DNA of 64,000 nt from Streptomyces sp. NBC_01235 (GTDB taxonomy: Bacteria; Actinomycetota; Actinomycetes; Streptomycetales; Streptomycetaceae). Made by a program: the position numbers and the translations under genes. Under the pieces are notes generated by a model. It saw nothing but the letters and a program-made list of their open reading frames with translations, was not told where the DNA came from and made no database searches. Below, in pieces: positions 8,756-64,000 of the stretch. Within the stretch, counting starts at the first letter, position 1; every line of letters begins with the position of its first letter. The stretch covers positions 8,680,001 through 8,744,000 of the forward strand of contig NZ_CP108513.1 of assembly GCF_035989285.1 (NCBI RefSeq), given 5' to 3'.

Positions 8756-10024
8756 ATGAGGGCAGACGACGCGGATGTCGCGGACGAGGCGGCACGGGAG
8801 GCGTCCGGGTTCACGGGACGTCGCTGGCTGCTGCCGTCGACCCTGGTCGCGGAGCTCGCCCCGGAAGCCGAGCGGCCCGGCCGGTCGCACCGGCGCACCG
8901 CGCGCGATTGGGTCGTCGACTTCTGCTGCTTCCTCCTGGCCGTCGCCGTCGGCCTGGCGGTCGCCGACTCCTTCCCCGGCGAACGGGACCTCCCGCCCGC
9001 CTTCGCCCTGACCGACCAGCTCCTGGGCGCCCTCGCCTGCGCGGCGGTCTGGCTGCGCCGCCGGTGGCCCCTCGGCCTCGCGGTCGCGATGGTCCCCCTC
9101 GGCTTCCTGTCGACCACCTCGGCCGGCGCCTGCACCGTCGCCCTCTTCACGCTCGCCGTGCACCGGCCCCTGCGGTACGTGGCCTGGGTGGGCGGCACCC
9201 AGCTCGCCCTGATCCCGCTGCTGGCCTGGGCGCGCCCGGACCCCACGCTGGCGTACGGGCCCGCGGTGGTGTGGAGCGTGCTCATCACCGTCACGGCCGT
9301 CGGCTGGGGCATGTTCGTACGGTCCAAGCGGCAGCTGATGCTGAGCCTGCGCGAGCGCGCCCGGCGCGCCGAGACGGAGGCCCGCCTGCGCGGCGAGCAG
9401 GCACAGCGGCTCGCCCGCGAGGCCATCGCCCGGGAGATGCACGACGTGCTCGCCCACCGGCTCACCCTGCTCAGCGTGCACGCGGGCGCGCTGGAGTTCC
9501 GCCCCGACGCGCCTCGCGAGGAGATCGCGCGGGCGGCCGGCGTCATCCGCGAGAGCGCCCACGAGGCCCTCCAGGACCTGCGGGAGATCATCGGCGTCCT
9601 GCGGGCGGGCGAGCCCGACGACGCCGGGCGCCCGCAGCCGACGCTGGCCGCCCTGGACACGCTGGTCGCCGAGTCCCGTGAGGCGGGCATGAAGGTCACC
9701 CTCGACCAGCGCGTCACCGACGCCGCGGCCGTCCCCGCCTCCGTCGGCCGCACCGCCTACCGCATCGCCCAGGAGTGCCTCACCAACGCCCGCAAGCACG
9801 CCCCGGGCGCGGAGACCGCGGTCACCGTCACCGGCGGCCCCGGCGAGGGCCTGGCCGTCACCGTACGCAACCCGGCCCCCGAGGGCGACGTACCCCCCGT
9901 CCCCGGCTCCGGCCAGGGCCTGATCGGCCTGACCGAACGAGCGACGCTGGCCGGAGGCCGGCTGGAACACGGGGCGTGGGGAGACGGGGGATTCGAGGTA
10001 CGGGCGTGGCTGCCGTGGGGGTGA
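8756..10024 (+). CDS. two-component sensor histidine kinase (NarL/DesK type)
   Basis: A 422-residue membrane histidine kinase. About four to five transmembrane segments span residues 50-190 (for example VDFCCFLLAVAVGLAVAD and PLGLAVAMVPLGFLS). The HisKA_3 dimerisation helix carries the phospho-acceptor His in AIAREMHDVLAHRLTLL. The ATPase domain has the N box CLTNARKHAPG and G-rich GSGQGLIGLTERATLAGG. The ATG at 8756 is the first good start. Its signal is unknown since there is no extracellular sensor domain. The cognate response regulator is 312 bases downstream. The stop overlaps the start of a small open frame. Confidence 0.9.
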   Translation: MRADDADVADEAAREASGFTGRRWLLPSTLVAELAPEAERPGRSHRRTARDWVVDFCCFLLAVAVGLAVADSFPGERDLPPAFALTDQLLGALACAAVWLRRRWPLGLAVAMVPLGFLSTTSAGACTVALFTLAVHRPLRYVAWVGGTQLALIPLLAWARPDPTLAYGPAVVWSVLITVTAVGWGMFVRSKRQLMLSLRERARRAETEARLRGEQAQRLAREAIAREMHDVLAHRLTLLSVHAGALEFRPDAPREEIARAAGVIRESAHEALQDLREIIGVLRAGEPDDAGRPQPTLAALDTLVAESREAGMKVTLDQRVTDAAAVPASVGRTAYRIAQECLTNARKHAPGAETAVTVTGGPGEGLAVTVRNPAPEGDVPPVPGSGQGLIGLTERATLAGGRLEHGAWGDGGFEVRAWLPWG

Positions 10025-25520: not shown

Positions 25521-25550
25521 CCCAATGGTCAACACTTCTTGACCATTGGG
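25521..25550. promoter_or_regulatory. long inverted-repeat operator of the MFS operon
   Basis: CCCAATGGTCAA and TTGACCATTGGG are perfect 12-base arms around CACTTC. The site abuts the ATG of the repressor at 25517. TTGACC would fit a -35 element on the plus strand and TTGACC on the minus strand too, so it may cover a promoter. Confidence 0.75.
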
Positions 25551-25829: not shown

Positions 25830-25849
25830 AATTGAAGAGTTCTTCAATT
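25830..25849. promoter_or_regulatory. ArsR operator A (AATTG-N10-CAATT)
   Basis: AATTGAAGAGTTCTTCAATT is a perfect palindrome with nine-base arms around GT. It is about 50 bases upstream of a three-gene operon that contains an ArsR regulator. The same AATTG-N10-CAATT frame recurs at the other two ArsR paralogues (27611-27630 region and 31828-31847). Confidence 0.7.
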
Positions 25850-25895
25850 GACTAGTTGCGGTGGTCGATAGGTGATCCGAGGTACGGAGGTCGGG

Positions 25896-26078
25896 GTGGG
25901 CACAGTTGTCGAGGCGCTGCTGGCGCGGGTGCGGGCGGCTCGGGCAAGGCTCGCGGCCGCTGTGGCGGCAAGGGACCCGTACGCCGTGGCAGTGGCCCAG
26001 GACGAGCTGGACGACGCGGTACGGGTGGCCCGCGGGCACGGGCTCGACGTCGACGTCGAGCGGGCGGACGAGGAGTGA
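25896..26078 (+). CDS. small helical protein, first in ArsR operon
   Basis: A 60-residue protein beginning MGTVVEALLARVRAARARLAAAV, from GTG at 25896 with GGAGG five bases upstream. An earlier GTG at 25872 is less well placed. It is predicted to be one or two long helices (ARARLAAAVAARD, AQDELDDAVRVARGHGL) and to be cytoplasmic. No family recognised. It ends six bases before the ArsR gene and is part of its operon. Confidence 0.6.
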   Translation: MGTVVEALLARVRAARARLAAAVAARDPYAVAVAQDELDDAVRVARGHGLDVDVERADEE

Positions 26079-26083
26079 TCGGG

Positions 26084-26422
26084 ATGCCAGTTCCGCTGTA
26101 CGAGGCGAAGGCGGAGTTCTTCCGGATGCTCGGGCATCCGGTGCGGATAAGGGTGCTGGAGCTGCTGCAGGACGGGCCGAAGCCGGTGCGCGACCTGTTG
26201 GCCGCGATCGAGGTCGAGCCGTCGAACCTGTCCCAGCAGCTCGCCGTGCTGCGCCGCTCGGGCATCGTGACCGCCACGCGCACCGGCTCCACGGTGGTGT
26301 ATGAGCTGGCCGGCGGTGACGTGGCGGAGCTGCTCGCCGCCGCGCGGCGGATCCTGGCCGTCCTCTGGTCCGGCCGGCGCGACCTGCTGGACGAGCTGCA
26401 GGCCGCGGAGCCCTCACCATGA
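26084..26422 (+). CDS. ArsR-family regulator, paralogue A
   Basis: A 112-residue winged-helix regulator. MPVPLYEAKAEFFRMLGHPVRIRVLELL is followed by the recognition helix region EVEPSNLSQQLAVLRRSGIVT and the wing ATRTGSTVVYELAG. It has no Cys at all, so it cannot be a metal-thiolate sensor such as classic ArsR or CmtR. It is over half identical to paralogues at 27091 and 31391. ATP-binding gene follows with ATGA overlap. Its probable operator is the palindrome at 25830. Confidence 0.9.
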   Translation: MPVPLYEAKAEFFRMLGHPVRIRVLELLQDGPKPVRDLLAAIEVEPSNLSQQLAVLRRSGIVTATRTGSTVVYELAGGDVAELLAAARRILAVLWSGRRDLLDELQAAEPSP

Positions 26423-26892
26423 CGAGCGAGGGAGGGTTCCGGCTGCCGTGGCGGCGGAGCAGGCCGGCAGCCGCGATCGAGCATCTGCCGCCGGCGGTGC
26501 AGCGGCACATCGTCTCGCTGAAGCTGGGGCCGGACACGGCCAGGCGGACACGCGAAGCGGTGGCCCGGCACCTGCCGGACGCGGGCGTCGCGCTGAACTC
26601 GGCGTTCGCGGACGCGGTGCTGCTGGTGACCAGTGAGCTGGTCACGAACGTGCTGCGGCATGCCGCCCACTCGCCGGTGATCGACGTCGGCCTGACGAGG
26701 TCGGCCGGACAGCTCGTTGTCAGCGTCGCGGACGCCGAACCCCGCCTGCCCGACCTCACCGCTGACGGCATGGGGGCCGGACTGCGGATGGTCACCGAGG
26801 TCGCCGCCGACTACGACGGCGATCTCAGTGCCGAACCAGCCGTCGACCACGACGGCAAGGTCGTCCTCGTACGGCTCCGGATGCCTTCGTAG
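26419..26892 (+). CDS. HATPase_c anti-sigma-factor-like ATP-binding protein
   Basis: A 157-residue protein of the RsbW-like single-domain GHKL class. The N box is LLVTSELVTNVLRHAAHSP near residues 65-83. VSVADAEPRLPDLTADGMGAGLRMV replaces the usual DxGxG and G2 boxes, only partly conserved. Such Streptomyces proteins often act as Ser kinases or anti-sigma factors on STAS partners. It is translationally coupled to ArsR paralogue A. A STAS partner is encoded nearby at 28199. Confidence 0.82.
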   Translation: MTSEGGFRLPWRRSRPAAAIEHLPPAVQRHIVSLKLGPDTARRTREAVARHLPDAGVALNSAFADAVLLVTSELVTNVLRHAAHSPVIDVGLTRSAGQLVVSVADAEPRLPDLTADGMGAGLRMVTEVAADYDGDLSAEPAVDHDGKVVLVRLRMPS

Positions 26893-27090
26893 AGCACCCC
26901 GGCCCAGATCAAGAAGCGGAGACACTCCAGGAACGGTGTGCTTGGGGTCCTGGAGGCACATGACCGGCGAGCGGCCGGGAGCTGCTGTTGCTGTCGCGGC
27001 AGGTGCCGCTGCCGGAGTACGGCCCGGGTGACCCTGATGCCTGCGTAGCTGTCCAGCTCACGGGAGACGGCCGCCGTACGTGGGCCGTCG

Positions 27091-27441
27091 TTACGACGGC
27101 GGTTCGGCCTGCCCCTGGGCGGCCTGGAGGTCGGCGAGCAGTTCGGCCTGCCCGGTCAGCACCCCGGAGAGGATGGTGCGGGCGACCCGCAGCAGCTGGG
27201 CGACGTGCGGGCTGGTGAGCGAGTAGTAGACCGTCGAGCCCTCCTTGCGGGTCACGACCAGGTTCGCCCGCCGCAGCACCGCCAGCTGCTGGGAGAGGTG
27301 CGCGGGCTCGACGCCCACCTCGGGCAGCATCTCCGAGACCGCGTGCTCTCGTACGCTCAGCAGCTCCAGGACCCGGATGCGCACCGGATGCCCGAGCGTC
27401 TTGAAGAACTCGGCCTTCAGTTGGTACAGCGGCGCACTCAC
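27091..27441 (-). CDS. ArsR-family regulator, paralogue B
   Basis: A 116-residue winged-helix regulator from GTG at 27441, preceded by GGAGGAG. It reads MSAPLYQLKAEFFKTLGHPVRIRVLELL, then EVGVEPAHLSQQLAVLRRANLVVTRKEGSTVYYSL. Like the other two paralogues it has no Cys. The open frame extends further upstream to 27627, but the internal GTG has the good ribosome site and matches paralogue lengths. It is divergent from a small zinc-ribbon gene across a 38-base perfect palindrome. Confidence 0.88.
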   Translation of the reverse strand: MSAPLYQLKAEFFKTLGHPVRIRVLELLSVREHAVSEMLPEVGVEPAHLSQQLAVLRRANLVVTRKEGSTVYYSLTSPHVAQLLRVARTILSGVLTGQAELLADLQAAQGQAEPPS

Positions 27442-27600
27442 TGGGCCCTCTCCTCCCCGCGACAGCAGCACGGCTCTGCCGGCCGGAGCTCGGCGCATCG
27501 CATCCACCCACTCGTCACACACATGCGGCCCATCCTCACCCGCGCAACCGGCCACACCGAATCCGTGCTGGGACACCGGACCGCCGAACCCGGCGGTGAC

Positions 27601-27638
27601 CATCTCTTTAATTGCTAACATTAGCAATTAAAGAGATG
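27601..27638. promoter_or_regulatory. 38-base perfect palindrome, ArsR operator B
   Basis: CATCTCTTTAATTGCTAA followed by CA and then its exact complement TTAGCAATTAAAGAGATG. The 18-base arms with a two-base centre contain AATTG-N10-CAATT at the core. It lies between ArsR paralogue B (minus) and the zinc-ribbon gene (plus) and is the strongest operator candidate in the window. Confidence 0.8.
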
Positions 27639-27654
27639 ACGCGAAGGGGTTTGT

Positions 27655-27840
27655 ATGAGGATCACTCCACTGCGCGGTATCGGCGTCCCCTGGTTCAAGT
27701 GCCCCGCCTGCCGCCTGAAGTGCCGCCCGGCCGCAGTCGGCCCGGACGGCAACTGCCCGGGCTGCGGCCATGCCCACATCCTCAAGCTCTCCTTCGGCAG
27801 CCGCTCCACCCAGCAGCCCACCCGGAACGACCGCGACTGA
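27655..27840 (+). CDS. small zinc-ribbon protein
   Basis: A 61-residue protein. MRITPLRGIGVPWFKCPACRLKCRPAAV and GNCPGCGHAHILKL carry two CPxC pairs, which should bind one zinc in a ribbon. GAAGGGG precedes the ATG. It is divergent from ArsR paralogue B and begins 17 bases after the 38-base palindrome, so it is likely under ArsR control. Function unknown. Confidence 0.68.
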   Translation: MRITPLRGIGVPWFKCPACRLKCRPAAVGPDGNCPGCGHAHILKLSFGSRSTQQPTRNDRD

Positions 27841-28198
27841 TCCGCGCCCGCCCGCCAGTCCGGCACCCGCCCGCCAGTCGGGCGTTCGCGGGGTGGCGGC
27901 CGGGTTGGACAGGCCGTTCGCCGAGGGCAGCACCGGACGGGCCACGAACGGGGCGCAGGCGCGGGCGAGAGGGACCACGAGGCATCGGGGGTGACGGCGT
28001 TGCGCCGGGCGGTTGGCCGGGCGGCCTGCGACGGCACCGCCGACCTCGCCCGCGTGGTTGCCGTCGGCCTTTCAGGCCGCGAGCTGACGGCGCTGGGCTG
28101 CGCGGAGGACACCGCCGTCGCCACCCAGGAGGACGCCTGCGCCCTCGTACCGGTACGCGACGGCGAGGGCGCCTTCGCCCCAGGATGACCTGGCCGCG
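27841..28198. other. gap, possible gene remnant
   Basis: GTG at 27991 opens 65 codons that read VTALRRAVGRAACDG to VVAVGLSGRELTALGCAEDTAVATQEDACALVP. The sequence looks like true protein and ends at 28188, but I cannot place it in a family and there is no clear ribosome site. The upstream 150 bases show nothing. Confidence 0.35.
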
Positions 28199-28612
28199 TC
28201 AGCGATGGGCGTCCTCCGTCGGCCAGCCCGTGGTGCGCCACTCCTGTCGCTCCTCGGGCTGGTCCTCCTTCTGTCCGGTGTCGTGCGCGGCGAGCGCGGA
28301 GGCCAGGTCGGCATGGACCGGGATGGGCGGGCAGCCACCGGCAGGGACGAGGGAGCCGTCGGCGGGGATCGCGGCCAGCTCCAGGCTGCGGCCCGCCTCG
28401 GCGAGGCGGAGAGCGGCTTCGGTGATGGCCAGCTGCCCTTCCGTCGACCAGTTGCGCAGCTCGGTGAGGTCGACGACGACCGGACCGGTGCCGCGGGCCA
28501 GGGCCCAGCCGATGGCTCCGCTGAAGCGGCGCACGGCGTCGGGACCGAGGTATCCGGCGACGGAGAGGACGCCGAGGCGGTCCTGGACGGTGTAGCGCCA
28601 GTCGATGGTCAT
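28199..28612 (-). CDS. STAS-domain protein (anti-anti-sigma-like)
   Basis: A 137-residue STAS protein. DWRYTVQDRLGVLSVAGYLGPDAVRRF is the first strand and helix, and GPVVVDLTELRNWSTEGQLAI replaces the SpoIIAA pattern (DLSxVxxMDSSG) with NWSTEG, where Ser or Thr could be phosphorylated. The C-terminal 35 residues are a hydrophilic tail (KEDQPEERQEW). It is the last gene of the ArsR-SulP-PPOX-HATPase-STAS operon, and the HATPase just upstream is the likely partner in a switch. Confidence 0.85.
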   Translation of the reverse strand: MTIDWRYTVQDRLGVLSVAGYLGPDAVRRFSGAIGWALARGTGPVVVDLTELRNWSTEGQLAITEAALRLAEAGRSLELAAIPADGSLVPAGGCPPIPVHADLASALAAHDTGQKEDQPEERQEWRTTGWPTEDAHR

Positions 28613-28660
28613 GGTGGTGTGCTTCCTCGCGCGGGTCGGGTGGTGAGGTCTGTGCTCCGG

Positions 28661-29086
28661 TCAGAGGGGGAGGGTGATCCAGATGCTCTTGCCCTGGCCG
28701 TCGGCGTCACCGCGGACGGCGGCGGTGCCACCCAGGCCCATGACGAGTTCCATGACGGTGCCCAGGCCACCTGCCCCGGCACCGGTGACCGCCCCGTACA
28801 GCGGCGGCTGGTAGGGGTGGCGGTCGTACACGGCGAAGGCCAGACAGTCCGCGCCCGCCGCGTAGATCACGGTGACCTTTGGGGAGAGCACAGCGGCATG
28901 CCGGACGCTGTTGGTGACCAGCTCGCTCAGGATCAGCAGTGCCGGATCCACCGTGGGGTGGCGCAGTCCGATGCCCCACTCGACCAGCACCTGTTCCGCG
29001 GTCTCGCGCGCGAGGCGGACGGCGGGCGGTTCGCTGGGCACGGTGAGCACGTGCCGGCGGGGCAGCGTCTCGACTCTGACGGACAT
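28661..29086 (-). CDS. HATPase_c serine-kinase/anti-sigma-like protein
   Basis: A 141-residue single-domain GHKL ATPase. RLARETAEQVLVEWG leads into the N box LILSELVTNSVRHAAVLSP. FAVYDRHPYQPPL replaces the DxGxG box and AGAGGLGTVMELVMGLGG the G-rich loop. Its start codon overlaps the PPOX stop by one base. A STAS gene follows 48 bases later. The pair has the architecture of an RsbW/RsbV or SpoIIAB/SpoIIAA switch. Confidence 0.83.
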   Translation of the reverse strand: MSVRVETLPRRHVLTVPSEPPAVRLARETAEQVLVEWGIGLRHPTVDPALLILSELVTNSVRHAAVLSPKVTVIYAAGADCLAFAVYDRHPYQPPLYGAVTGAGAGGLGTVMELVMGLGGTAAVRGDADGQGKSIWITLPL

Positions 29087-29643
29087 CAGCTCTCCGTGCG
29101 GGTGAGGCGGAAACCGGTCACGGTCTCGGGGTGGATGCGCAGCACCGTGTCGTGCGGGCCATGGCTCCGGCCGGACGGGGTGCGGAGGATGGGGGCACCT
29201 CCCACGTCCTTGAGGCAATGGGGGACGGCGGCCTCGATCGGGTCGTTGATCACCTCGGCGGGGCCGGGTCGCGGTGCAGGACGGCGTGCTGGCCGGGGAT
29301 GGCGAAGTCCTCGGTGAGTTCGGCGATGCCCGCCAGGTCGCCGACCGGTCGGCGGTCGGCCGTCTCCGGGCCGGTGTCGCGCCGACAGGGTCACCGTCCG
29401 GCCGGTGCCGGTCACGACCCCGAGCTCGTCCACCTGATACGTCGCCGCCTCGATCGCGACAGCCGCCTGGACGGGAGTCCGGACGAGCGGGCGCCCGGAT
29501 TCCCCCACGTGCCGGGCGGGCCGTACGACGGTCGGTTCCCCCTGCGCGTACACCAGCCGCCCCATGCTGCTGCCCTCCACCAGCCGGAGCGCCTCCGCGC
29601 CGGAGACCTCGGCCAGGCGCAGGGCCGCACGGGGAAGCTTCAT
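29086..29643 (-). pseudogene. PPOX-like (FMN-binding) gene, probably frameshifted
   Basis: The 185-codon frame starts MKLPRAALRLAEVSGAEALRLVEGSSMGRLVYAQG and ends DTVLRIHPETVTGFRLTRTES. Both ends match the pyridoxamine-phosphate-oxidase-like family seen again at 33135 (IFVRVESELVTGREL). The middle (residues about 90-130, RPPTGRRPGGHRRTHRGLRH) looks like out-of-frame sequence. A different frame there reads VGDLAGIAELTEDFAIPGQHAVLHRD. Two compensating indels would explain it. It overlaps SulP by four bases and the HATPase by one. Confidence 0.6.
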
Positions 29644-31394
29644 CGGAGAGGCTCCTCACGGGATTCGGGGGACGTCGTGGCGTTCGGGAGCGTCATCCGC
29701 CGGTGGGCCGCGGCCGGCAGGATCCCTGCAAGTTCCAGGTGATCGCGGGCGCCCAGGATCGCCTCCGGGGTGGTGGCGTAGTCCCGGCCGTTGTGCCGCA
29801 GCAGTTCCAGCGCGCCGACGGAGTCCAGGACCTGGTGCTGGTCGGGGCGTATGCCGGAGGCCAGGACAAGGATCCCGCGCCGGGTCAGCTTCTCCACGGC
29901 GTCCTTCAGGACGAGGGCGCCGGTGGCGTCCATCGTCGACACCCGTGACATACGCAGGATCACGACCCGGACGTCCGCGACCTCGGTCAGCTCCAGCAGG
30001 AAGCGGTGAGCGGCGGCGAAGAACAGCGGCCCGTCGATGCGGTACGCGACGATGTGCTCGGCGAGCAGGGCGTGTTCCTCGGCGCTGTGGTCCCCGCGGT
30101 CGAGGGGGACCTCTTCGAGGCGGGCCTGCTTGGCGACCGCACGCAGGGCGAGGACGCCCGCGACGGTGAGGCCGATGATCACGGCGTACACGAGGTCGAG
30201 GGCGAGCGTCGCGATGGCGGTGAGCACGAGGATCAGGGCATCGGAACGGGTGGCCTTCGCCATCGCCCTCAGCGAGCCCACCTCGACCATGCGGATCGCG
30301 GTGGCCAGCAGCACACCCGCCAGCGCGGCCAGCGGGATCCTGGAGACGAGGGGTGCTGCCGCGAAGACGATCACGGCGAGGATCGCGGCGTGGACCAGGG
30401 AGGCGAGCCGGGAGGTCGCGCCGGTGCGGACGTTGACCGCGGTGCGGGCGATCGCACCGGTGGCCGGGACACCGCCGAACAGCGGGGCGGCGATGTTGGC
30501 CAGCCCCTGCCCGAACAGCTCCCGGTCGGGGTCGTGCTTCTGGCCGACTGTCATGCCGTCGGCGACCGAGGCCGACAACAGAGACTCCAGGGCGGCCAGC
30601 GCCGCCACGGCGACCGCTGGGGCGAGAAGGGAGCCGAGCGCGCCCGGGTTCAGGAAGGCGAGGGAGGGCGCGGGCAGACCGGACGGCAGGTCGCCGATCT
30701 GCTTCGCCGCGTCCAGGCCGGCGACCTGGGCCACGATCGTGGCCGCGATCACGGCGAGAATGGAGAAGGGGATCGCGGGCCGCAGGCGGGCCCCGAGCAG
30801 CATGACGCCGGCGACTGCCAGGGCGAAGGCGACGGCAGTCCAGTTCGGGTTCTCCGCGAACTCCTCCAGCGCACGCCAGGTCACCACGAGGACGCGGTCG
30901 CCCTCGGGCTTGGGCACGCCAAGGGCGTTCGGAATCTGCTGTAGGCCGATGATGCAGGCGATGCCGAGAGTGAAGCCCTCGACGACAGGCGCGGGCACGT
31001 ACTGCATGTACTTGCCGGCCCGCAGCACCGCCAGCGCGACGAGTATCACGCCCGCCATCAATCCGACGGTCAGTACCCCTCCCGGCCCGTGCTCGGCGAC
31101 GATCGGCACCAGCACCACCGTCATCGCCCCGGTCGGCCCGGAGACCTGCAGATTCGACCCGCCGAACACCGCCGCGAGCGCACCGGCGACCACCGCGGTC
31201 GCCAGCCCCGCCTCGGCGCCGAGCCCGGAGGAGACGCCGAAACCGAGCGCGAGCGGCAGCGCGACGATCGCCACCGTGAGGCCGGCCAGCAGGTCGCGGC
31301 GCGGATCCCGGCGTATCTCCGTCAGATCGGTACGGCCGGGCAGCAGCGCGGTGAGCCGAGCCCTGGCCCGGCCAAGGTCGAAGGAGGTGCTCAT
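29640..31394 (-). CDS. SulP-family anion transporter with STAS domain
   Basis: A 584-residue SLC26/SulP protein with about 12-14 membrane helices. GLTVAIVALPLALGFGVSSGLG and GSNLQVSGPTGAMTVVLVPI are the transport-core motifs, and FGGVPATGAIARTAVNVRTGA matches the family block. The C-terminal STAS domain (about residues 440-560) has VVILRMSRVSTMDATGALVLKDAVEKL. Substrate could be sulfate, bicarbonate or another anion; there is no fused carbonic anhydrase. It overlaps ArsR paralogue C upstream and the PPOX gene downstream, both by four bases, so translation is coupled. Confidence 0.92.
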   Translation of the reverse strand: MSTSFDLGRARARLTALLPGRTDLTEIRRDPRRDLLAGLTVAIVALPLALGFGVSSGLGAEAGLATAVVAGALAAVFGGSNLQVSGPTGAMTVVLVPIVAEHGPGGVLTVGLMAGVILVALAVLRAGKYMQYVPAPVVEGFTLGIACIIGLQQIPNALGVPKPEGDRVLVVTWRALEEFAENPNWTAVAFALAVAGVMLLGARLRPAIPFSILAVIAATIVAQVAGLDAAKQIGDLPSGLPAPSLAFLNPGALGSLLAPAVAVAALAALESLLSASVADGMTVGQKHDPDRELFGQGLANIAAPLFGGVPATGAIARTAVNVRTGATSRLASLVHAAILAVIVFAAAPLVSRIPLAALAGVLLATAIRMVEVGSLRAMAKATRSDALILVLTAIATLALDLVYAVIIGLTVAGVLALRAVAKQARLEEVPLDRGDHSAEEHALLAEHIVAYRIDGPLFFAAAHRFLLELTEVADVRVVILRMSRVSTMDATGALVLKDAVEKLTRRGILVLASGIRPDQHQVLDSVGALELLRHNGRDYATTPEAILGARDHLELAGILPAAAHRRMTLPNATTSPESREEPLR

Positions 31395-31732
31395 CGCGCC
31401 GCGCCCTCGGCTTCCCGCAGCTCGGCCAGCAGCTCGTTCTGTCCGGTGAGCATCTCGGTCAGGATCCGGCGCGCGGCCTGCATCAGGTCGGCGACGTCCC
31501 CGCTCGCGAGGGCATAGACCACGGTCGAGCCCTCGCGCTGCGAGGTGACGATGCCCGAGCGACGCAGCATCGCCAGCTGTTGCGACAGGCTGGAGGGCTC
31601 CACCTCGATCTCCGCGAGCAGATCACGCACCGGCAAGGGCCCGTCCCGTAGCAGCTCCAGCACCCTTATCCGTACCGGATGCCCCAGCAAACGGAAGAAC
31701 TCGGCCTTGGCCTGGTACAGCGGAACGGACAC
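31391..31732 (-). CDS. ArsR-family regulator, paralogue C
   Basis: A 113-residue regulator read from GTG at 31732 with GAGGAG upstream. It reads MSVPLYQAKAEFFRLLGHPVRIRVLELLRDGPLPVRDLL and EVEPSSLSQQLAMLRRSGIVTSQREGSTVVYAL. No Cys. It is very close to paralogue A. It heads a five-gene operon with SulP, PPOX, HATPase and STAS genes. The likely operator is the 20-base near-palindrome at 31828. Confidence 0.9.
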   Translation of the reverse strand: MSVPLYQAKAEFFRLLGHPVRIRVLELLRDGPLPVRDLLAEIEVEPSSLSQQLAMLRRSGIVTSQREGSTVVYALASGDVADLMQAARRILTEMLTGQNELLAELREAEGAAR

Positions 31733-31827
31733 GGCTCCTCGACTTCTCCGACAGCACCCCACACGGGGCAGATACAGAAGGCTTTGCCCGCGGCAACCTG
31801 CGGGCGCAGTCAACACAGCATCTAACG

Positions 31828-31847
31828 AATTGCGAAATTTTGCAATT
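31828..31847. promoter_or_regulatory. ArsR operator C (AATTG-N10-CAATT)
   Basis: AATTGCGAAATTTTGCAATT is palindromic except for one mismatched pair. It lies 95 bases upstream of the ArsR paralogue C start and shares AATTG-N10-CAATT with the sites at 25830 and inside 27601-27638. The surrounding bases are unusually AT-rich for this genome. Confidence 0.7.
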
Positions 31848-32744: not shown

Positions 32745-32799
32745 GGGCCACGGGCCACGGGCCACGGGCCACGGGCCACGGGCCACGGGCCACGGGCCA
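32745..32799. repeat. 7-base tandem repeat (GGGCCAC)
   Basis: Almost eight direct copies of GGGCCAC with no spacer and no mismatch until the last. It lies in a gene-free stretch between 32700 and 33134. No protein reads through it convincingly. It is a simple satellite likely to vary in copy number. Confidence 0.9.
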
Positions 32800-32886
32800 G
32801 CGGCCGCAGGCCAGAAGCCGGCGGCCAGCGGACCGGCAGGACTCGGCCGGGAGTCACGGGGGCGACCGGGAGGGGTGAGGCGCGGG

Positions 32887-34220: not shown

Positions 34221-34349
34221 GATCGGCCTGGCGGAGAAGGGACGGATGGCGCACCCCAGATGCGCCGACAGGCCCTCCTTGCAGGCATCGCGAGCGACGA
34301 GCATCGACGGTGCAGAAGTTCTGTGTGCTGAGTGAGGGAGAGACCGGCG

Positions 34350-36611
34350 ATGACGGCAACGGTGACAGCTGGACCGCGGGCGACGACCGAGGCATGGCGA
34401 GGCTTCGCCGGTGCGCACTGGCGGGATCAGGTCGACGTGCGCGACTTCATCCAGGCCAACTACACGCCGTACGAGGGCGATTCCACGTTCCTCACCGGGC
34501 CGACCGAGCGCACGCTCACTGTCTGGGGCAAGGTCGCCGCGCTGTTCCCCGAGGAGCGGCGCCGGGGCGTCCTCGACGTCGACCCGGGCAACCCGTCCAC
34601 CATCACCTCACATCGGCCGGGCTTCATCGACCGCGACCGTGAGCTGATCGTCGGCCTGCAGACCGACGCCCCGCTCCGGCGGGCGATCATGCCCAATGGC
34701 GGACTGCGGATGGTGGAGAACGGGCTGAAGGCGTACGGCTACCGGGCCGACCCGTTCGTCACGCGCGTCTTCGGGACCTACCGCAAGACCCACAACGACG
34801 GTGTCTTCGACGCGTACACCCCCGAGATGCGCGCCGCCCGCAAGGCCGGCATCATCACCGGACTGCCCGACGCCTACGGCCGCGGCCGGATCATCGGCGA
34901 CTACCGGCGCGTGGCGCTGTACGGCACCGACCGGCTGATCGGGGCCAAGCGCGCCGAGAAGGCCCGGCTGGACGCCGAGCCGTCGAGCGAGCACGTCATC
35001 CGCGACCGCGAGGAACTCGCCGAGCAGATCAAGGCCCTGGGTGAACTGACCCGCATGGCGGCGACCTACGGTTGCGACGTCTCCCGTCCCGCGGTCACCG
35101 CGCACGAGGCCGTGCAGTGGCTCTACCTCGGCTTCCTCGCGGCGGTGAAGGAACAGAACGGCGCCGCGATGTCGCTGGGCCGCACCTCCACCTTCCTCGA
35201 CGTCTACCTCCAGCGCGACCTGGACGAGGGAGTCCTCGACGAGTCCCGTGCCCAGGAGCTCGTCGACGACTTCGTGATCAAGCTGCGGATCGTCCGGTTC
35301 CTGCGCACCCCCGAGTACGACGCCCTGTTCTCCGGCGACCCCACCTGGGTCACCGAGTCCATCGGCGGCATCGGCGACGACGGCCGCCCGCTGGTCACCC
35401 GCACCTCCTTCCGCTTCCTGCAGACCCTCTACAACCTCGGCCCCGCCCCCGAGCCCAACCTCACCGTCCTGTGGTCGCCCCGACTGCCCGCCGGCTTCAA
35501 GGAGTTCTGCGCGCAGGTGTCCATCGACACCAGCGCCGTCCAGTACGAGTCCGACGACCTGTTGCGCCCCCGCAACGGCGACGACACCGCGATCGCCTGC
35601 TGCGTCTCCGCCATGGCGGTGGGCAAGGAGATGCAGTTCTTCGGCGCCCGCGTCAACCTGGCCAAGGCGCTGCTGTACGCGGTCAACGGCGGCCGGGACG
35701 AGATGACCGGCGAGCAGATCGCCCCCGAGACGCCCGCGATCACCCGCGAGTACCTGGACTACGAGCAGCTGTCGGCGGCCTACGACCACATGCTCGACTG
35801 GCTGGCGGCCACCTACGTCAACGCGCTCAACGTCATCCACTACATGCACGACAAGTACGCCTACGAGCGCATCGAGATGGCCCTGCACGACCACCCCGTG
35901 CACCGCTTCATGGCCTGCGGCATCGCAGGGCTGTCGGTCGCCGTCGACAGCCTGTCCGCCGTCAAACACGCGCGCGTGAAGGTCATCCGGGACGCGACCG
36001 GGCTCGCCGTCGACTACGAGATCGAGGGGGACTACCCGGCGTACGGCAACAACGACGAGCGCGCGGACGCCCTCGCCGCCGACCTGGTCCGGTCCTTCAT
36101 GGCCAAGGTGCGCAAGCACCCGACCTACCGGGACGCCGAGCACACCCAGTCGGTGCTGACCATCACCTCGAACGTCGTCTACGGCAAGCACACCGGCAAC
36201 ACCCCCGACGGCCGCCGGGCCGGACAGCCGTTCGCCCCCGGCGCCAACCCGATGAACGGCCGTGACCGGCACGGCGTGGCAGCCTCCGCGCTCTCGGTGG
36301 CCAAGCTGCCGTACGAGCAGGCCCGCGACGGCATCTCGCTGACCACGACCATCACCCCGGAGGGACTGGGACACGTCCCCCAGGAGCGCGCGGGCCACCT
36401 GGTCGGCATCCTCGACGCCTACATGGGCGCCGGCGGGTTCCACATGAACGTCAACGTCCTCGACCGCGCCACCCTCGAGGACGCGATGGAGCACCCGGAG
36501 AAGTACCCCGACCTGACCATCCGGGTCTCCGGGTACGCCGTCAACTTCGTCCGGCTGACCCGCGAGCAGCAGCTCGACGTGATCAGCCGCACCTTCCACG
36601 GATCGCTGTGA
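34350..36611 (+). CDS. pflB: pyruvate formate-lyase (glycyl radical enzyme)
   Basis: A 753-residue glycyl radical enzyme that converts pyruvate and CoA to formate and acetyl-CoA. The paired active-site cysteines are Cys417-Cys418 in AIACCVSAM. The radical Gly is Gly728 in [53 protein letters not shown] and [17 protein letters not shown] are also PFL hallmarks. Length is normal (about 760). The ATG at 34350 is preceded by GGGAGAG. The activase is directly downstream and overlaps. The radical is destroyed by oxygen, so expression is expected only without air, which is unusual for a Streptomyces. Confidence 0.95.
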
Positions 36612-37354
36612 GCACCATGGCCGAGCCGCTGACGGGCCGGATCCACTCCTGGGACCTGTCCACGGGAGTGGACGGTCCCGGGACCCGGTTCGTGCTGTTC
36701 CTCAGCGGCTGCCCCCTGCGCTGCCTGTACTGCGCCAACCCCGACACCTGGCACATGCGCGACGGGAAGCAGACCACCGTCGACGAGGTGATGGCCGAGA
36801 TCGAGAGGTACCGGCCCTTCATCACCACCGCCGGCGGGGGAGTGACGCTCACCGGCGGCGAGGCGCTGCTGCAGCCCGCCTTCACGGCCGCGATCTTCCG
36901 CCGCTGCAAGGAACTCGGCCTGCACACCGCCCTCGACACCTCAGGCTTCCTCGGCGCCCGCGCGACCGACGAACTGCTCGCCGACACCGACCTGGTCCTG
37001 CTGGACATCAAGTCCTTCGACGTGCGCACCTACCGGAAGCTGACCGGCGGAGACCTCTCCCCGACCCTCAACTTCGCCACCCGCCTCGACCGGCTCGGCG
37101 TCCCGGTGTGGATCCGCTATGTCCTCGTGCCCGGCTGGACCGACGACCCTGCGGCCGTCGACGGGCTCGGCGCGTTCCTCGCGGAGCTGGCCAACGTCGA
37201 CCGGGTGGACGTTCTGCCGTTCCACAAGCTCGGCGCCCACAAGTACGAGGCGCTGGGGATCCCCTTCCCGCTGCGCGACACACCCGCGCCGGATCCGGAC
37301 CTGACGGAGCGGGTGCGCGAGCAGTTCCGGGAGCATGGCCTGCGGGCGTTCTGA
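36608..37354 (+). CDS. pflA: pyruvate formate-lyase activating enzyme
   Basis: A 248-residue radical-SAM enzyme that installs the glycyl radical on PflB. The cluster motif CxxxCxxC is Cys35-Cys39-Cys42 in [26 protein letters not shown] is the SAM-binding GGE motif. [11 protein letters not shown] and [11 protein letters not shown] complete the fold. GTG at 36608 overlaps the PflB stop (GTGA); an ATG nine bases later is the alternative. The gene ends before a 52-base perfect palindrome that should terminate the operon. Confidence 0.94.
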
Positions 37355-60956: not shown

Positions 60957-61649
60957 ATGGCGGACGGCGCGCAGCCCGGACCCGACAACCCGATCCGGGT
61001 CTTCCTGCTGGACGACCACGAGGTTGTCCGGCGCGGGGTGCACGACCTGCTGAACGACGAGCCGGACATCACCGTGGTCGGCGAGGCCGCCAATGTCGAA
61101 CAGGCCCTGATCCGTGTGCCCGCTCTGCGCCCGCAGGTGGCGGTGCTCGATGTGCGTCTGCCGGACGGCGACGGGGTGACCGTGTGCCGGGAGCTGCGCT
61201 CGCAGATGCCGGAGCTGGCCTGCCTGATGCTGACCTCGTTCGACGACGAGGAGGCCCTGCTGGACTCGATCATGGCGGGCGCCTCCGGGTACGTGCTGAA
61301 GCAGATCCAGGGCTCGGACCTGGTGTCGGCGGTGCGGACGGTGGCTGCCGGCCAGTCCCTGCTCGACCCCAGCGCCACCGCCAAGCTGATGGCCCGGCTG
61401 CGCCAGGGCCGCGAGCCGGAGCCCGAGCCCGACGCACTGCCGGGCCTGACCGAGAGGGAGCGGGAGATCCTGGCCCTCATCGGTGAGGGGCTGACCAACC
61501 GCCAGATCGGCCAGCGGCTCTACCTCGCCGAGAAGACGGTGAAGAACCATATCTCCCGGCTGCTGGCCAAGCTCGGTGTGGAGCGGCGCGTCCAGGCCGC
61601 CGTCATCGCCACCCAGGCCCAGGACCGGCTGAGGCAGGAAGGCCACTGA
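60957..61649 (+). CDS. DevR/DosR-like LuxR-family response regulator
   Basis: A 230-residue NarL-type regulator. The receiver contains [29 protein letters not shown], phospho-acceptor Asp65 in [13 protein letters not shown] and Lys in [11 protein letters not shown]. The HTH is [73 protein letters not shown] resembles DevR/DosR, the hypoxia/nitric oxide regulator of mycobacteria. No sensor kinase is encoded nearby. GAPDH follows after 127 bases. Confidence 0.88.
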
Positions 61650-61667
61650 CGCCGCGTGGCGAGCCGT

Positions 61668-61683
61668 GGGGCCGAACGTCCCC
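61668..61683. promoter_or_regulatory. DosR-type box candidate upstream of GAPDH
   Basis: GGGGCCGAACGTCCCC is a 16-base palindrome with two mismatched pairs, close to the mycobacterial DosR form GGGACTTTAGTCCC. It is 94 bases upstream of the GAPDH start and just after the regulator stop. Confidence 0.45.
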
Positions 61684-61776
61684 CGGCCCGCCCCCGTACG
61701 GCCCAAGTCCGCTCGCGTCCCCGGCCGCCAGGCTGGCAGCGCACAGAGACGCGGATCGATCGGGAGGACGACGGAC

Positions 61777-62805
61777 ATGAGCGTGCGCGTGGGCATCAAC
61801 GGCTTCGGCCGTATCGGACGCAACTACCTGCGCTGCGTGCTGGAGCGCGCGGAGAGCGCCGCCGGCACCCCGGTGGAGGTCGTGGCGATCAACGACGTCA
61901 CCTCGCCGGCCGCACTGGCCCATCTGCTGGCGTACGACTCGACGTACGGCCGCCTCGGCCGCCCCGTCGAGCACGACGACGACTCGATCACCGTCGACGG
62001 GCATCGGGTCACGGTGACCGCCGAACGCGACCCGGCTGCCCTGGCCTGGGGTGACCTCGGCGTGGATGTCGTCATCGAGTCCACCGGCCGCTTCCGCACC
62101 CGCGAGGACGCCGGACTGCACCTGAAGTCCGGCGCGCGCAAGGTGCTGCTGTCCGTGCCGGGCAAGGGCGTCGACGCCACGATCGTGATGGGCGTCAACG
62201 AAGGCACCTACGACCCGGACCACGACCACGTGGTCTCCAACGCCTCGTGCACCACGAACTGCGTGGCACCCATGGTGAAGGTGCTGGACGAGCACTTCGG
62301 CCTCGTCAAGGGCCTGATGACCACCATCCACGGCTACACCAACGACCAGGTCGTCCTCGACGGTCCGCACAAGGACCTACGCCGCGGCCGCAGCGCCGCC
62401 GTCAACATCATCCCGACCAGCACCGGTGCCGCGCGGGCCGTCGGCCTCGTCCTCCCGGAACTGGCCGGCACCCTGGACGGCATCGCCGTACGGGTCCCCG
62501 TCGAGGACGGCTCGCTGACCGACCTGAGCGTGATCCTGGAGCGGCCCGTGACCGCCGACGAGGTCAACGCGGCGTTCCGGGAGGCCGCGGACGGTCCGCT
62601 GAAGGGCGTCCTGCGAGTGTCCGACGCCCCGATCGTCTCCCGCGACGTCGTCGGCGACCCCGCCTCCTGTGTCATGGACGCCCCGCTGACCCAGGCGCAC
62701 GGCGAACTGGTGAAGGTCTTCGGCTGGTACGACAACGAGTGGGGCTACACCAACCGACTGCTCGACCTCACCGAGTACGTCGCCACCAGCCTCCCACGGA
62801 ACTGA
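61777..62805 (+). CDS. gap: glyceraldehyde-3-phosphate dehydrogenase, type I
   Basis: A 342-residue GAPDH. VRVGINGFGRIGRNYLRCVLE is the NAD site, SNASCTTNCVAPMVKVL contains catalytic Cys158, and VKVFGWYDNEWGYTNRLLDL the C-terminal NAD contact. VNIIPTSTGAARAVGLVLPEL is also typical. GGGAGGACG precedes ATG at 61777. Streptomyces usually encode a further glycolytic gap elsewhere, so this copy, next to a DevR-type regulator, may serve fermentative or stress metabolism. Confidence 0.94.
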   Translation: MSVRVGINGFGRIGRNYLRCVLERAESAAGTPVEVVAINDVTSPAALAHLLAYDSTYGRLGRPVEHDDDSITVDGHRVTVTAERDPAALAWGDLGVDVVIESTGRFRTREDAGLHLKSGARKVLLSVPGKGVDATIVMGVNEGTYDPDHDHVVSNASCTTNCVAPMVKVLDEHFGLVKGLMTTIHGYTNDQVVLDGPHKDLRRGRSAAVNIIPTSTGAARAVGLVLPELAGTLDGIAVRVPVEDGSLTDLSVILERPVTADEVNAAFREAADGPLKGVLRVSDAPIVSRDVVGDPASCVMDAPLTQAHGELVKVFGWYDNEWGYTNRLLDLTEYVATSLPRN

Positions 62806-63366
62806 CCGACCGGGCCGGTGGGACCGAGAGCGGGCTGGTGGCCGTCGGCTCGGGCTCCGGCCCCGTCGGCGCGCTCTCACCTTCCGGGCGGGTATGCCGG
62901 TACCTGCCGGTCCTGCCCGAGGTGCTCGGCGTCGGCCCGGATCACGTCGATGCGCGGCGGATGCCTCCGTGCGGGCGCCCTCCACGAGCTGCCGCCCGGC
63001 GCGAGCGCCGTTCCCGTGGGGACGGGGGAGCCCCTTGCGGTGGTCGAGCTCGACGCCCGCGCCTACCCCAATGATCACTGCGGAACCATGGGCGCGAGAG
63101 GGGCGAGCGGACCCGGATGGGGGCCGATGAGGGCCTTGCGAGCCCGCGGCCGGTTCGTGGTGCGGGGATGCGCGCAGCCACGTTGTCCGGTGGCGCTCAG
63201 GACTCCGTGAGACACCCGGGGCCCGTCGGGCGGACACTGGAATCGGGTCGTGGGGCGCGGACCGATCGCCGTCGTGGGCGTGGGCGTCGGCACGTCCGCC
63301 ACTTGGCTCATCGGGGTACACGACGGAGCAGACCCACGTCGCCTCGGCGGCGTGTGAGGAGGATGA
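62806..63366. other. gap without a supported gene
   Basis: 560 bases. One plus-strand frame reads GALHELPPGASAVPVGTGEPLAVVELDARAYPNDHCG, which might be part of a protein, but it has no start or family and is broken. Nothing else was supported. Confidence 0.5.
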
Positions 63367-64000
63367 GTGGCTTCGCGACAGCTTGACGAGAAGACGGTGA
63401 TCAGCCTGGTGGCCGAGGCTGCTGCGGCCCCGTCCATGCACAACGCGCAGCCGTGGCGCTTCCGCTTCCTGACCGGTGAGCGCGTTCTGCTGCTGCGCGC
63501 CGACCCGCAGCGGGCCATGCCCCGGTCCGATCCCGACAACCGGGCGCTGCACATCGGCTGCGGGGCCGCACTGTTCAACCTGCGCGTCGCCGCCGCGCAC
63601 GCGAACCTCCTCCCGGAGACCCGGCTGCTGCCCGAGCCGCAGGACCCGCTGCTGCTCGCCGCTGTCCATCTGGCTGACGAGGCCGGGCGCCCGCGGGACG
63701 AGGACGTGGCGCGGCTGCACCCGGCGATCGGCCGGCGGCACACCAGCCGCTATCCCTTCGCCGAGAAGGACGTCCCCGAAGACGTGCGGGTGACCCTGCA
63801 GGACGCTGCCGAGCGGGAGGGCGCCGTGCTGCTCTTCCCCGGTCCCTGGCACACCGAGACCGTGCTCGACCTGATCCGCGACGCCGAGAGCCGGGACACC
63901 ATGGACCCGGACGCGAGCGAGGACCTGGTCCGCTGGACCCGGCTCGGGCCGGAGGCGGACACGGCCGTCGACGGCGTCCCCGAGTACGCGTTCGGGCCGC
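63367..64000 (+). CDS. Acg-type nitroreductase-family protein (runs off end)
   Basis: At least 211 residues are present and the frame is open at the window end. GTG follows AGGAGG. VAEAAAAPSMHNAQPWRFRF is the FMN-binding start of the family, DNRALHIGCGAALFNLRVAAAHA the second FMN block. Proteins of this group (mycobacterial Acg, Rv2032) belong to DosR regulons and may sequester FMN rather than reduce nitro compounds. It is near the DevR-like regulator, which supports a hypoxia role. Confidence 0.88.
   Translation, partial: MASRQLDEKTVISLVAEAAAAPSMHNAQPWRFRFLTGERVLLLRADPQRAMPRSDPDNRALHIGCGAALFNLRVAAAHANLLPETRLLPEPQDPLLLAAVHLADEAGRPRDEDVARLHPAIGRRHTSRYPFAEKDVPEDVRVTLQDAAEREGAVLLFPGPWHTETVLDLIRDAESRDTMDPDASEDLVRWTRLGPEADTAVDGVPEYAFGP

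Follow-up and report, generated by a model that had tools for sequence, protein, structure and literature searches.

Cysteine-free ArsR paralogues of Streptomyces sp. NBC_01235: predicted palindromic operators and kinship with the mycobacterial regulator Rv0081

In this study, we asked what three closely related ArsR proteins that lack cysteine might control and sense in Streptomyces sp. NBC_01235. Their genes lie in a stretch of 64,000 nucleotides (contig NZ_CP108513.1, positions 8,680,001 to 8,744,000; hereafter the window), and a first-pass annotation had described them, together with three AATTG-N10-CAATT sites, as a small self-contained circuit in which the ten variable central bases could set which paralogue binds which site. 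Based on the sequence comparisons presented here, we consider it likely, with a probability of roughly 75 %, that the three proteins, named ArsR1, ArsR2 and ArsR3, act as repressors of the Rv0081 type, each of which would control its own promoter and operon, and that they are tied to oxygen-limited metabolism. The predicted operators and the regulator genes are the following (window coordinates).

Operator 1, 25830..25849, plus strand: AATTGAAGAGTTCTTCAATT, of the AAGA type, which is the type of the ArsR1a group of relatives.
ArsR1, 26084..26422, plus strand: 112 amino acids, no cysteine, Rv0081-like.
Operator 2, 27601..27638, no strand: core AATTGCTAACATTAGCAATT at 27610-27629, between ArsR2 and a divergent gene for a 61-amino-acid protein.
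ArsR2, 27091..27441, minus strand: no cysteine; of the three, the highest bit score to Rv0081.
Operator 3, 31828..31847, minus strand: AATTGCAAAATTTCGCAATT on the gene strand, followed by the -10-like stretch TTAGATGCTG, which recurs in the ArsR3 group.
ArsR3, 31391..31732, minus strand: no cysteine; opens the SulP operon.

Each palindrome had been placed upstream of one ArsR gene (starting at 26084 on the plus strand and at 27441 and 31732 on the minus strand), and these positions proved exact, with distances to the start codon of approximately 234 bases for ArsR1, 168 for ArsR2 and 95 for ArsR3. Within the window, the exact motif is limited to 25830-25849, 27610-27629 and 31828-31847 (none in 100 shuffles), and a scan of the whole genome (11,090,044 bases) returned the same three sites only, with none for a control pattern read backwards. 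Operator 2 forms the centre of a 38-base inverted repeat (27601-27638) with arms of 18 bases and two unpaired central bases. A fourth close paralogue in the genome (G000:C1:410311; 193.6 bits, the next best ArsR protein having 45.9 bits) has the site AATTGAAGATTTCTTCATCT, with two mismatches, approximately 150 bases upstream. Scanning the genome for TTGAAGANNTCTTCAA with up to one mismatch gave matches only at ArsR1 and the fourth paralogue, while up to two mismatches gave 20 places compared with 7 for the control; AATTGCNAANNTTNGCAATT with up to three mismatches matched only operators 2 and 3. In this genome, strong sites are restricted to the promoters of ArsR paralogues. A search for consensus sigma-70 promoters gave a single match, at 25532-25503, away from every operator.

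To extend this to the genus, 150 same-genus genomes were surveyed with ArsR genes matched at 1e-30; such genes are present in 85 of them, and a few weaker ones, such as those of G015, G064 and G126, lie outside the fetched stretches. The fetched stretches, with the window and the fourth paralogue included and one full gene and one partial hit left out, provided 154 genes. A search for the motif near ArsR genes throughout Streptomyces had been proposed in the first-pass annotation. Over 450 bases upstream, 51 of the 154 genes have a best site without mismatch, 29 one with a single mismatch, 30 one with two and 44 one with three or more, whereas dinucleotide shuffles lead one to expect 0.1, 0.2 and 3.6 genes with zero, one and two mismatches (110 relatives with at most two, compared with 3.9). 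The exact motif is present in 67 of the 150 genomes. Among the matches listed there are 75 exact sites, 44 of which precede an ArsR gene by at most 450 bases, ArsR being the commonest neighbour among the genes looked for, and 11 of which stand directly before a SulP, ATPase or YjdM gene without an ArsR gene. The AATTG-N10-CAATT sites look like real operators, to which binding is predicted. A separate perfect palindrome, AATTGTTAGCGCTAACAATT, was noted at position 4075 of L191; neither an ArsR nor a module gene was found in its vicinity, and it likely belongs to another regulator.

The centre of the site differs with the class of the protein, reading TTGAAGA-NN-TCTTCAA for the ArsR1 types, TTGCtAAT for ArsR2 and TTGCnAAA for ArsR3. 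The group consensus is AATTGC.AAAtT..GCAATT followed by.g.TAgATGCTG for ArsR3 (38 genes, with a conserved TAGAT stretch 3 bases past the operator; median 92 bases to the start), a.TTGCtAAT.TtaGCAAtT for ArsR2 (26 genes; 164 bases), aCTTGAAGAgTTCTTCAATT for ArsR1a (10 genes; 235 bases) and A.TTGAAGA..TCTTCAA.T for ArsR1b, the type of the fourth paralogue (44 genes; 141 bases). As the groups were built with the site type in hand, these consensus sets are only descriptive. When the proteins were instead sorted by the N-terminal motif alone, those with PLYEAK had 10 AAGA and no C sites, those with PLYQLK had no AAGA and 25 C sites (27 more having another site or none), and those with PLYQAK carried both types (39 AAGA, 34 C). 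On the protein tree (152 genes, 116 labelled) the AAGA and C types require 7 changes, compared with at least 29 in 200 shuffles of the labels. Residue 49, which precedes the LSQQL recognition helix, is N, S or A in AAGA genes (29, 22 and 3) and H, A, S, G or N in C genes (24, 18, 12, 7 and 1). Symmetric base pairs exceed the matching expected from column make-up at pair 9, both in ArsR1b and in the wider set described below, and at pairs 11-13 in ArsR2, in a comparison made without a significance test. We take it as a lead that the operator centre may be paralogue-specific and recur across species.

In its strict form, this idea would mean an insulated circuit, in which each paralogue is restricted to its own operator and the ten-base centre is a fixed address. 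While the tracking of centres with protein type and the difference at residue 49 favour such insulation, the recognition helices of ArsR1-3 are nearly alike, differing at very few residues, and several operators stand without their expected partner. An ArsR3-type site directly precedes SulP, with ArsR3 missing from that place, at L083, L091, L099, L115, L137, L159, L180 and L184; it precedes a decayed ArsR3 gene at L138 and L168 and an ATPase gene at L178, L185 and L186. The genome of L083 carries ArsR3 elsewhere (L081), but among the matches listed no ArsR3 was found at 1e-30 in the genomes of the other seven SulP loci, and the matches listed for two of these, G130 and G142, contain no family member but ArsR2 at this threshold. 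Five of the seven are draft assemblies, in which an unseen ArsR3 is therefore possible; G007 and G136 are single-contig. Similarly, L086 has an ArsR2-type site before hydrogenase-4-like genes (15 bases from the first gene in its longest reading, or some 300 from the start suggested by relatives of 160 amino acids) in a genome in which only ArsR1a was found among the matches listed. A class I/II aminotransferase gene in L118 also has an ArsR3-type site, at position 9630, 53 bases ahead of it. The orphan ArsR3-type sites before SulP are either served by another paralogue or relics. Since such operators are kept in genomes in which ArsR3 was looked for and not found, a strict specificity is unlikely and we regard full insulation as improbable; what stands of the proposal that the centre sets paralogue binding is that the centre varies with the paralogue and recurs across species, not that it is a strict address.

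As to what the proteins might sense, ArsR1-3 share the start PLY-x2-KAEFF-x2-LGHPVRIRVLELL and contain no cysteine, as had been described, and ArsR1 is 52 % identical to ArsR2 and 72 % to ArsR3. All three match PF01022 (HTH_5) and NF033788 above cut-off, which places them in the ArsR/SmtB superfamily, and fall far under the NCBIfam equivalog cut-offs for BigR, CmtR and similar proteins. The closest solved structure for the family profile is Rv0081 (PDB 6jmi), with 134 bits over nearly the full length and the next structure at 59 bits; single-sequence scores are 112.8 bits for ArsR2, 102.6 for ArsR1 and 94.7 for ArsR3. Judged by this homology, which is sufficient for a fold assignment, ArsR1-3 are related to Rv0081, the hypoxia regulator of mycobacteria, and can be assigned to its type (cluster 3 of PMC10509353), an assignment made from structure-sequence matches and not by re-running the published network.

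The further claim that the paralogues do not sense metals through thiolates holds because cysteine is absent from all three and nearly absent from their relatives: a single cysteine within the first 112 residues is found in 1 of the 154 genus relatives and in 4 of 89 relatives from a wider set, and one of these four (L205) sits ahead of the start methionine. This leaves metal sensing through other ligands, in favour of which are one histidine that ArsR2 retains, in our reading of the alignment, at an alpha5 position of CzrA, and the CxxC-rich gene that operator 2 faces. The fold family is indeed that of the metal sensors SmtB, CzrA and NmtR, the operators of which are palindromic as well. However, when aligned with the positions that we take to be the metal ligands (a cysteine in alpha3, or the Asp/His set in alpha5 of CzrA and NmtR), ArsR1-3 have neither the thiolate nor a complete alpha5 set. 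Rv0081 itself is without a defined metal site according to PMC6177252, and altogether metal sensing seems very unlikely. The persulfide sensors BigR, SqrR and HlyU, members of the same family, are defined by a cysteine pair (PMC10509353), located in alpha2 and alpha5 in BigR and SqrR; ArsR1-3 lack this pair, and their NCBIfam match to BigR is far under its cut-off. Least credible of all is that the palindromes serve another regulator or form RNA hairpins and lie near ArsR genes by mere proximity: some ArsR2 sites do reach inverted repeats of 36-38 bases and the flanking pairs 11-13 match as described above, but ArsR is the commonest site neighbour among the genes looked for and the site type tracks the ArsR type on the protein tree, the latter being the reason why the hairpin explanation was dropped.

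Relatives also occur outside the genus. ArsR was matched at 1e-25 in 111 of 296 genomes of the class Actinomycetes, and part of these 111 gave the wider set of 89 genes, 11 of them from the genus itself. A palindrome score favouring TTG...CAA exceeded the top of 80 single-base shuffles for 71 of the 89 genes; outside the genus this was so for 61 of 78, and 35 of these 61 are of the AAGA type. In 36 of 44 loci (43 mycobacterial-type and one Gordonia; L297-L339, L350) TGAT[AG]ANTTCTTCAA occurs within 130 bases upstream of the orthologue, the exact form being absent from L308, L325, L327, L329, L333, L337, L338 and L339. The three-paralogue circuit is no isolated case, having kin in Rv0081 and similar palindromes upstream of relatives in other Actinomycetes families. 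In the literature, Rv0081 is described as a hub of the mycobacterial hypoxic response (PMC4757040), is cited as repressing itself through an inverted repeat (PMC6177252), and belongs to an ArsR cluster that is called largely uncharacterised (PMC10509353). Gel shifts were reported for 7 of 10 predicted Rv0081 sites (PMC4757040); one of these, GAGAATTC, is similar to the centre of the AAGA operators. The likeness of ArsR1-3 to the M. tuberculosis protein comprises by far the best structure match, the PLY-x2-KAEFF start and an inverted repeat at the own promoter, where the site is present and binding is predicted. In addition, the gene that follows the Rv0081 orthologue in the mycobacterium-like L227 has, in our reading, a VDAGSCNGCE motif, which is shared by HycG-like proteins after some ArsR2 genes. 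Unlike Rv0081, the system described here has three to four paralogues with diverged half-sites, an operon of SulP, PNPOx, ATPase and STAS genes, and a locus without a hydrogenase-4-like operon.

The remaining features of the locus, from which its putative targets can be read, are these.

Open reading frame of 60 amino acids, 25896..26078, plus strand: between operator 1 and ArsR1; no Pfam match.
HATPase_c protein, 26419..26892, plus strand: Pfam match; 9 of 10 ArsR1a genes, including the one here, are followed by a relative.
Gap of 198 bases, 26893..27090, no strand: in relatives, a hydrogenase-4-like operon lies here, between ArsR2 and the ArsR1 unit.
CxxC-rich (zinc-ribbon-like) protein of 61 amino acids, 27655..27840, plus strand: divergent from ArsR2, 26 bases past operator 2.
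Decayed C-terminal piece of a 2-phosphosulfolactate-phosphatase-like gene (c10), 27952-28185, plus strand: the gene is whole here in relatives.
STAS_2-like protein of the ArsR3 operon, 28199..28612, minus strand: 26 bits, under the Pfam cut-off of 29.2.
HATPase_c protein of the ArsR3 operon, 28661..29086, minus strand: Pfam match.
PNPOx-like gene position, 29086..29643, minus strand: no Pfam match; looks frame-disrupted.
SulP anion transporter with STAS domain, 29640..31394, minus strand: profile matches.

The 60-amino-acid reading frame and the divergent 61-amino-acid gene facing operator 2 are details beyond the first-pass annotation; relatives of the latter gene keep an identical spacing to the site in L088 and L146. 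The HATPase_c protein at 26419..26892 is presumably of the RsbW-like type. In a relative, the protein at the PNPOx-like position matches Pyridox_ox_2. Across the genus, SulP follows ArsR3 in 33 of 38 cases, and a gene without a Pfam match, which we take to be roadblock-like, precedes ArsR1b in 37 of 44 (for example L007 918-1292). Calling the circuit self-contained understates it, as SulP, PNPOx, ATPase and STAS genes also lie behind such operators, and so do hydrogenase-4-like genes in relatives. Beside the locus, a further inverted repeat, CCCAATGGTCA...TGACCATTGGG (25521-25550), lies just upstream of a leftward HTH/MFS gene pair (25517 to 23695) and is perhaps its own operator; a short tandem repeat with the 7-base unit GGGCCAC was seen at 32745-32800.

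According to the model we favour, ArsR1-3 would be winged-helix repressors, each binding the 20-bp palindrome that heads its own transcription unit. ArsR1 would repress the unit with the RsbW-like ATPase, ArsR2 its own gene and the divergent small CxxC-rich gene, and ArsR3 the SulP, PNPOx, ATPase and STAS genes. The outer TTG...CAA would be a family-wide address, while the inner bases would bias the choice and separate the paralogues incompletely, so that cross-regulation of the SulP unit is likely. Most likely, a dimer on the palindrome beside the -10-like stretch would block transcription until released by a signal or by a falling repressor level, and the releasing signal would be independent of a cysteine thiolate and of an alpha5 metal site. 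The module as a whole may be part of oxygen-limited energy metabolism.

Several points weigh against this model. An operator within 450 bases is missing for 27 of 58 ArsR2 genes, and a module gene clearly precedes them on the same strand in some cases only (6 SulP; 4 each ATPase, STAS and YjdM). Among the matches listed, 20 of the 75 exact sites are elsewhere, 10 of them in unfetched stretches. The link between class and centre depends on few independent changes on the tree, which is why we treat it as a lead. Rv0081 is reported to be a positive regulator at the Rv3334 promoter, where a palindrome by itself did not bind it (PMC6177252). The co-occurrence with PFL given below ignores phylogeny, and the DevR box is not enriched in the window, with 2 matches at up to one mismatch compared with 10.3 by chance, looser OsdR boxes being outside this test.

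In the relatives L102, L109 and the pair L092/L093, the gene order is ArsR3-SulP-PNPOx-(ATPase)-(STAS), c10, the small CxxC gene with ArsR2, a hydrogenase-4-like operon and, after some extra genes, a convergent ATPase-ArsR1 unit; in L078 the part from ArsR2 to ArsR1 is on one contig and ArsR3 on another. The operon is beside ArsR1 in L078, L092, L102 and L109 and beside ArsR2 in L078, L102 and L109, and in the fetched stretches eight of the 150 genomes have such genes close to ArsR. In the window the genes run in this order but inverted, and a gap of 198 bases replaces the operon; the linkage to hydrogenase-4/formate-hydrogenlyase-like genes is thus seen in some relatives and not at this locus. 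The decayed c10 piece supports this being the same locus after losses. A tblastn search of the gap for an operon remnant gave chance-level hits only (best E 0.064), and the large-subunit homologues in the rest of the genome are only 30-31 % identical. The operon encodes Oxidored_q6, Proton_antipo_M, NADHdh and 49- and 30-kDa subunit domains and a partial NiFeSe_Hases match above cut-off; in NCBIfam, all under cut-off, the membrane parts match hydrogenase 4 B, F and membrane subunit and the large subunit NuoD. Since no CxxC motif is found in four large subunits (L078, which is shorter, L092, L102 and L109), the complex is probably not a working NiFe hydrogenase, and the candidate function as a formate hydrogenlyase is weakened. 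It resembles the hydrogenase-related (Ehr) complexes.

PFL is present in 55 of the 150 genus genomes, and ArsR was found in 45 of the 55 with PFL compared with 40 of the 95 without (Fisher p 2.7e-6, phylogeny not corrected). PFL and a radical-SAM partner also adjoin the locus itself (window 34332-37354). A plasmid of S. nojiriensis (NZ_CP107888.1, L370) carries an island with four annotated ArsR genes, SulP, PNPOx, ATPase, STAS and carbonic anhydrase, and weaker relatives are carried on Rhodococcus plasmids. From SulP and the carbonic anhydrase of this island, bicarbonate or formate is thinkable as the signal. Carbonic anhydrase as a constant partner, which would favour bicarbonate, was rejected, as it was matched in 3 of 122 fetched same-genus loci besides the island. 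With the OsdR/DevR dormancy regulon the locus shares the hypoxia theme, and a LuxR-type response regulator and a weak nitroreductase match at 60957-64000 of the window give a dormancy-like neighbourhood; ArsR and Rv0081 were both absent when the main text of PMC5069765 (OsdR/DevR) was searched for these terms.

A literature search of titles and the beginnings of abstracts, with most subscription journals outside it, gave no paper on these Streptomyces regulators or on the operator code. The proteins themselves belong to the known Rv0081 kind, and the novelty would lie in the paralogue-linked operator code and the extended regulon. Tentatively, and as a rather doubtful extension of the repressor model, three or four paralogues with the family address TTG...CAA and a centre of their own might form a partly cross-wired network, which would couple a transporter for an anion, perhaps bicarbonate or formate, together with switches of the RsbW/STAS type and a membrane complex resembling complex I, to a signal outside those known for ArsR proteins. 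With its predicted operators, its predicted targets and its natural gene losses, this set of paralogues from soil bacteria would make operator specificity and the signal of this kind of regulator testable without a pathogen.

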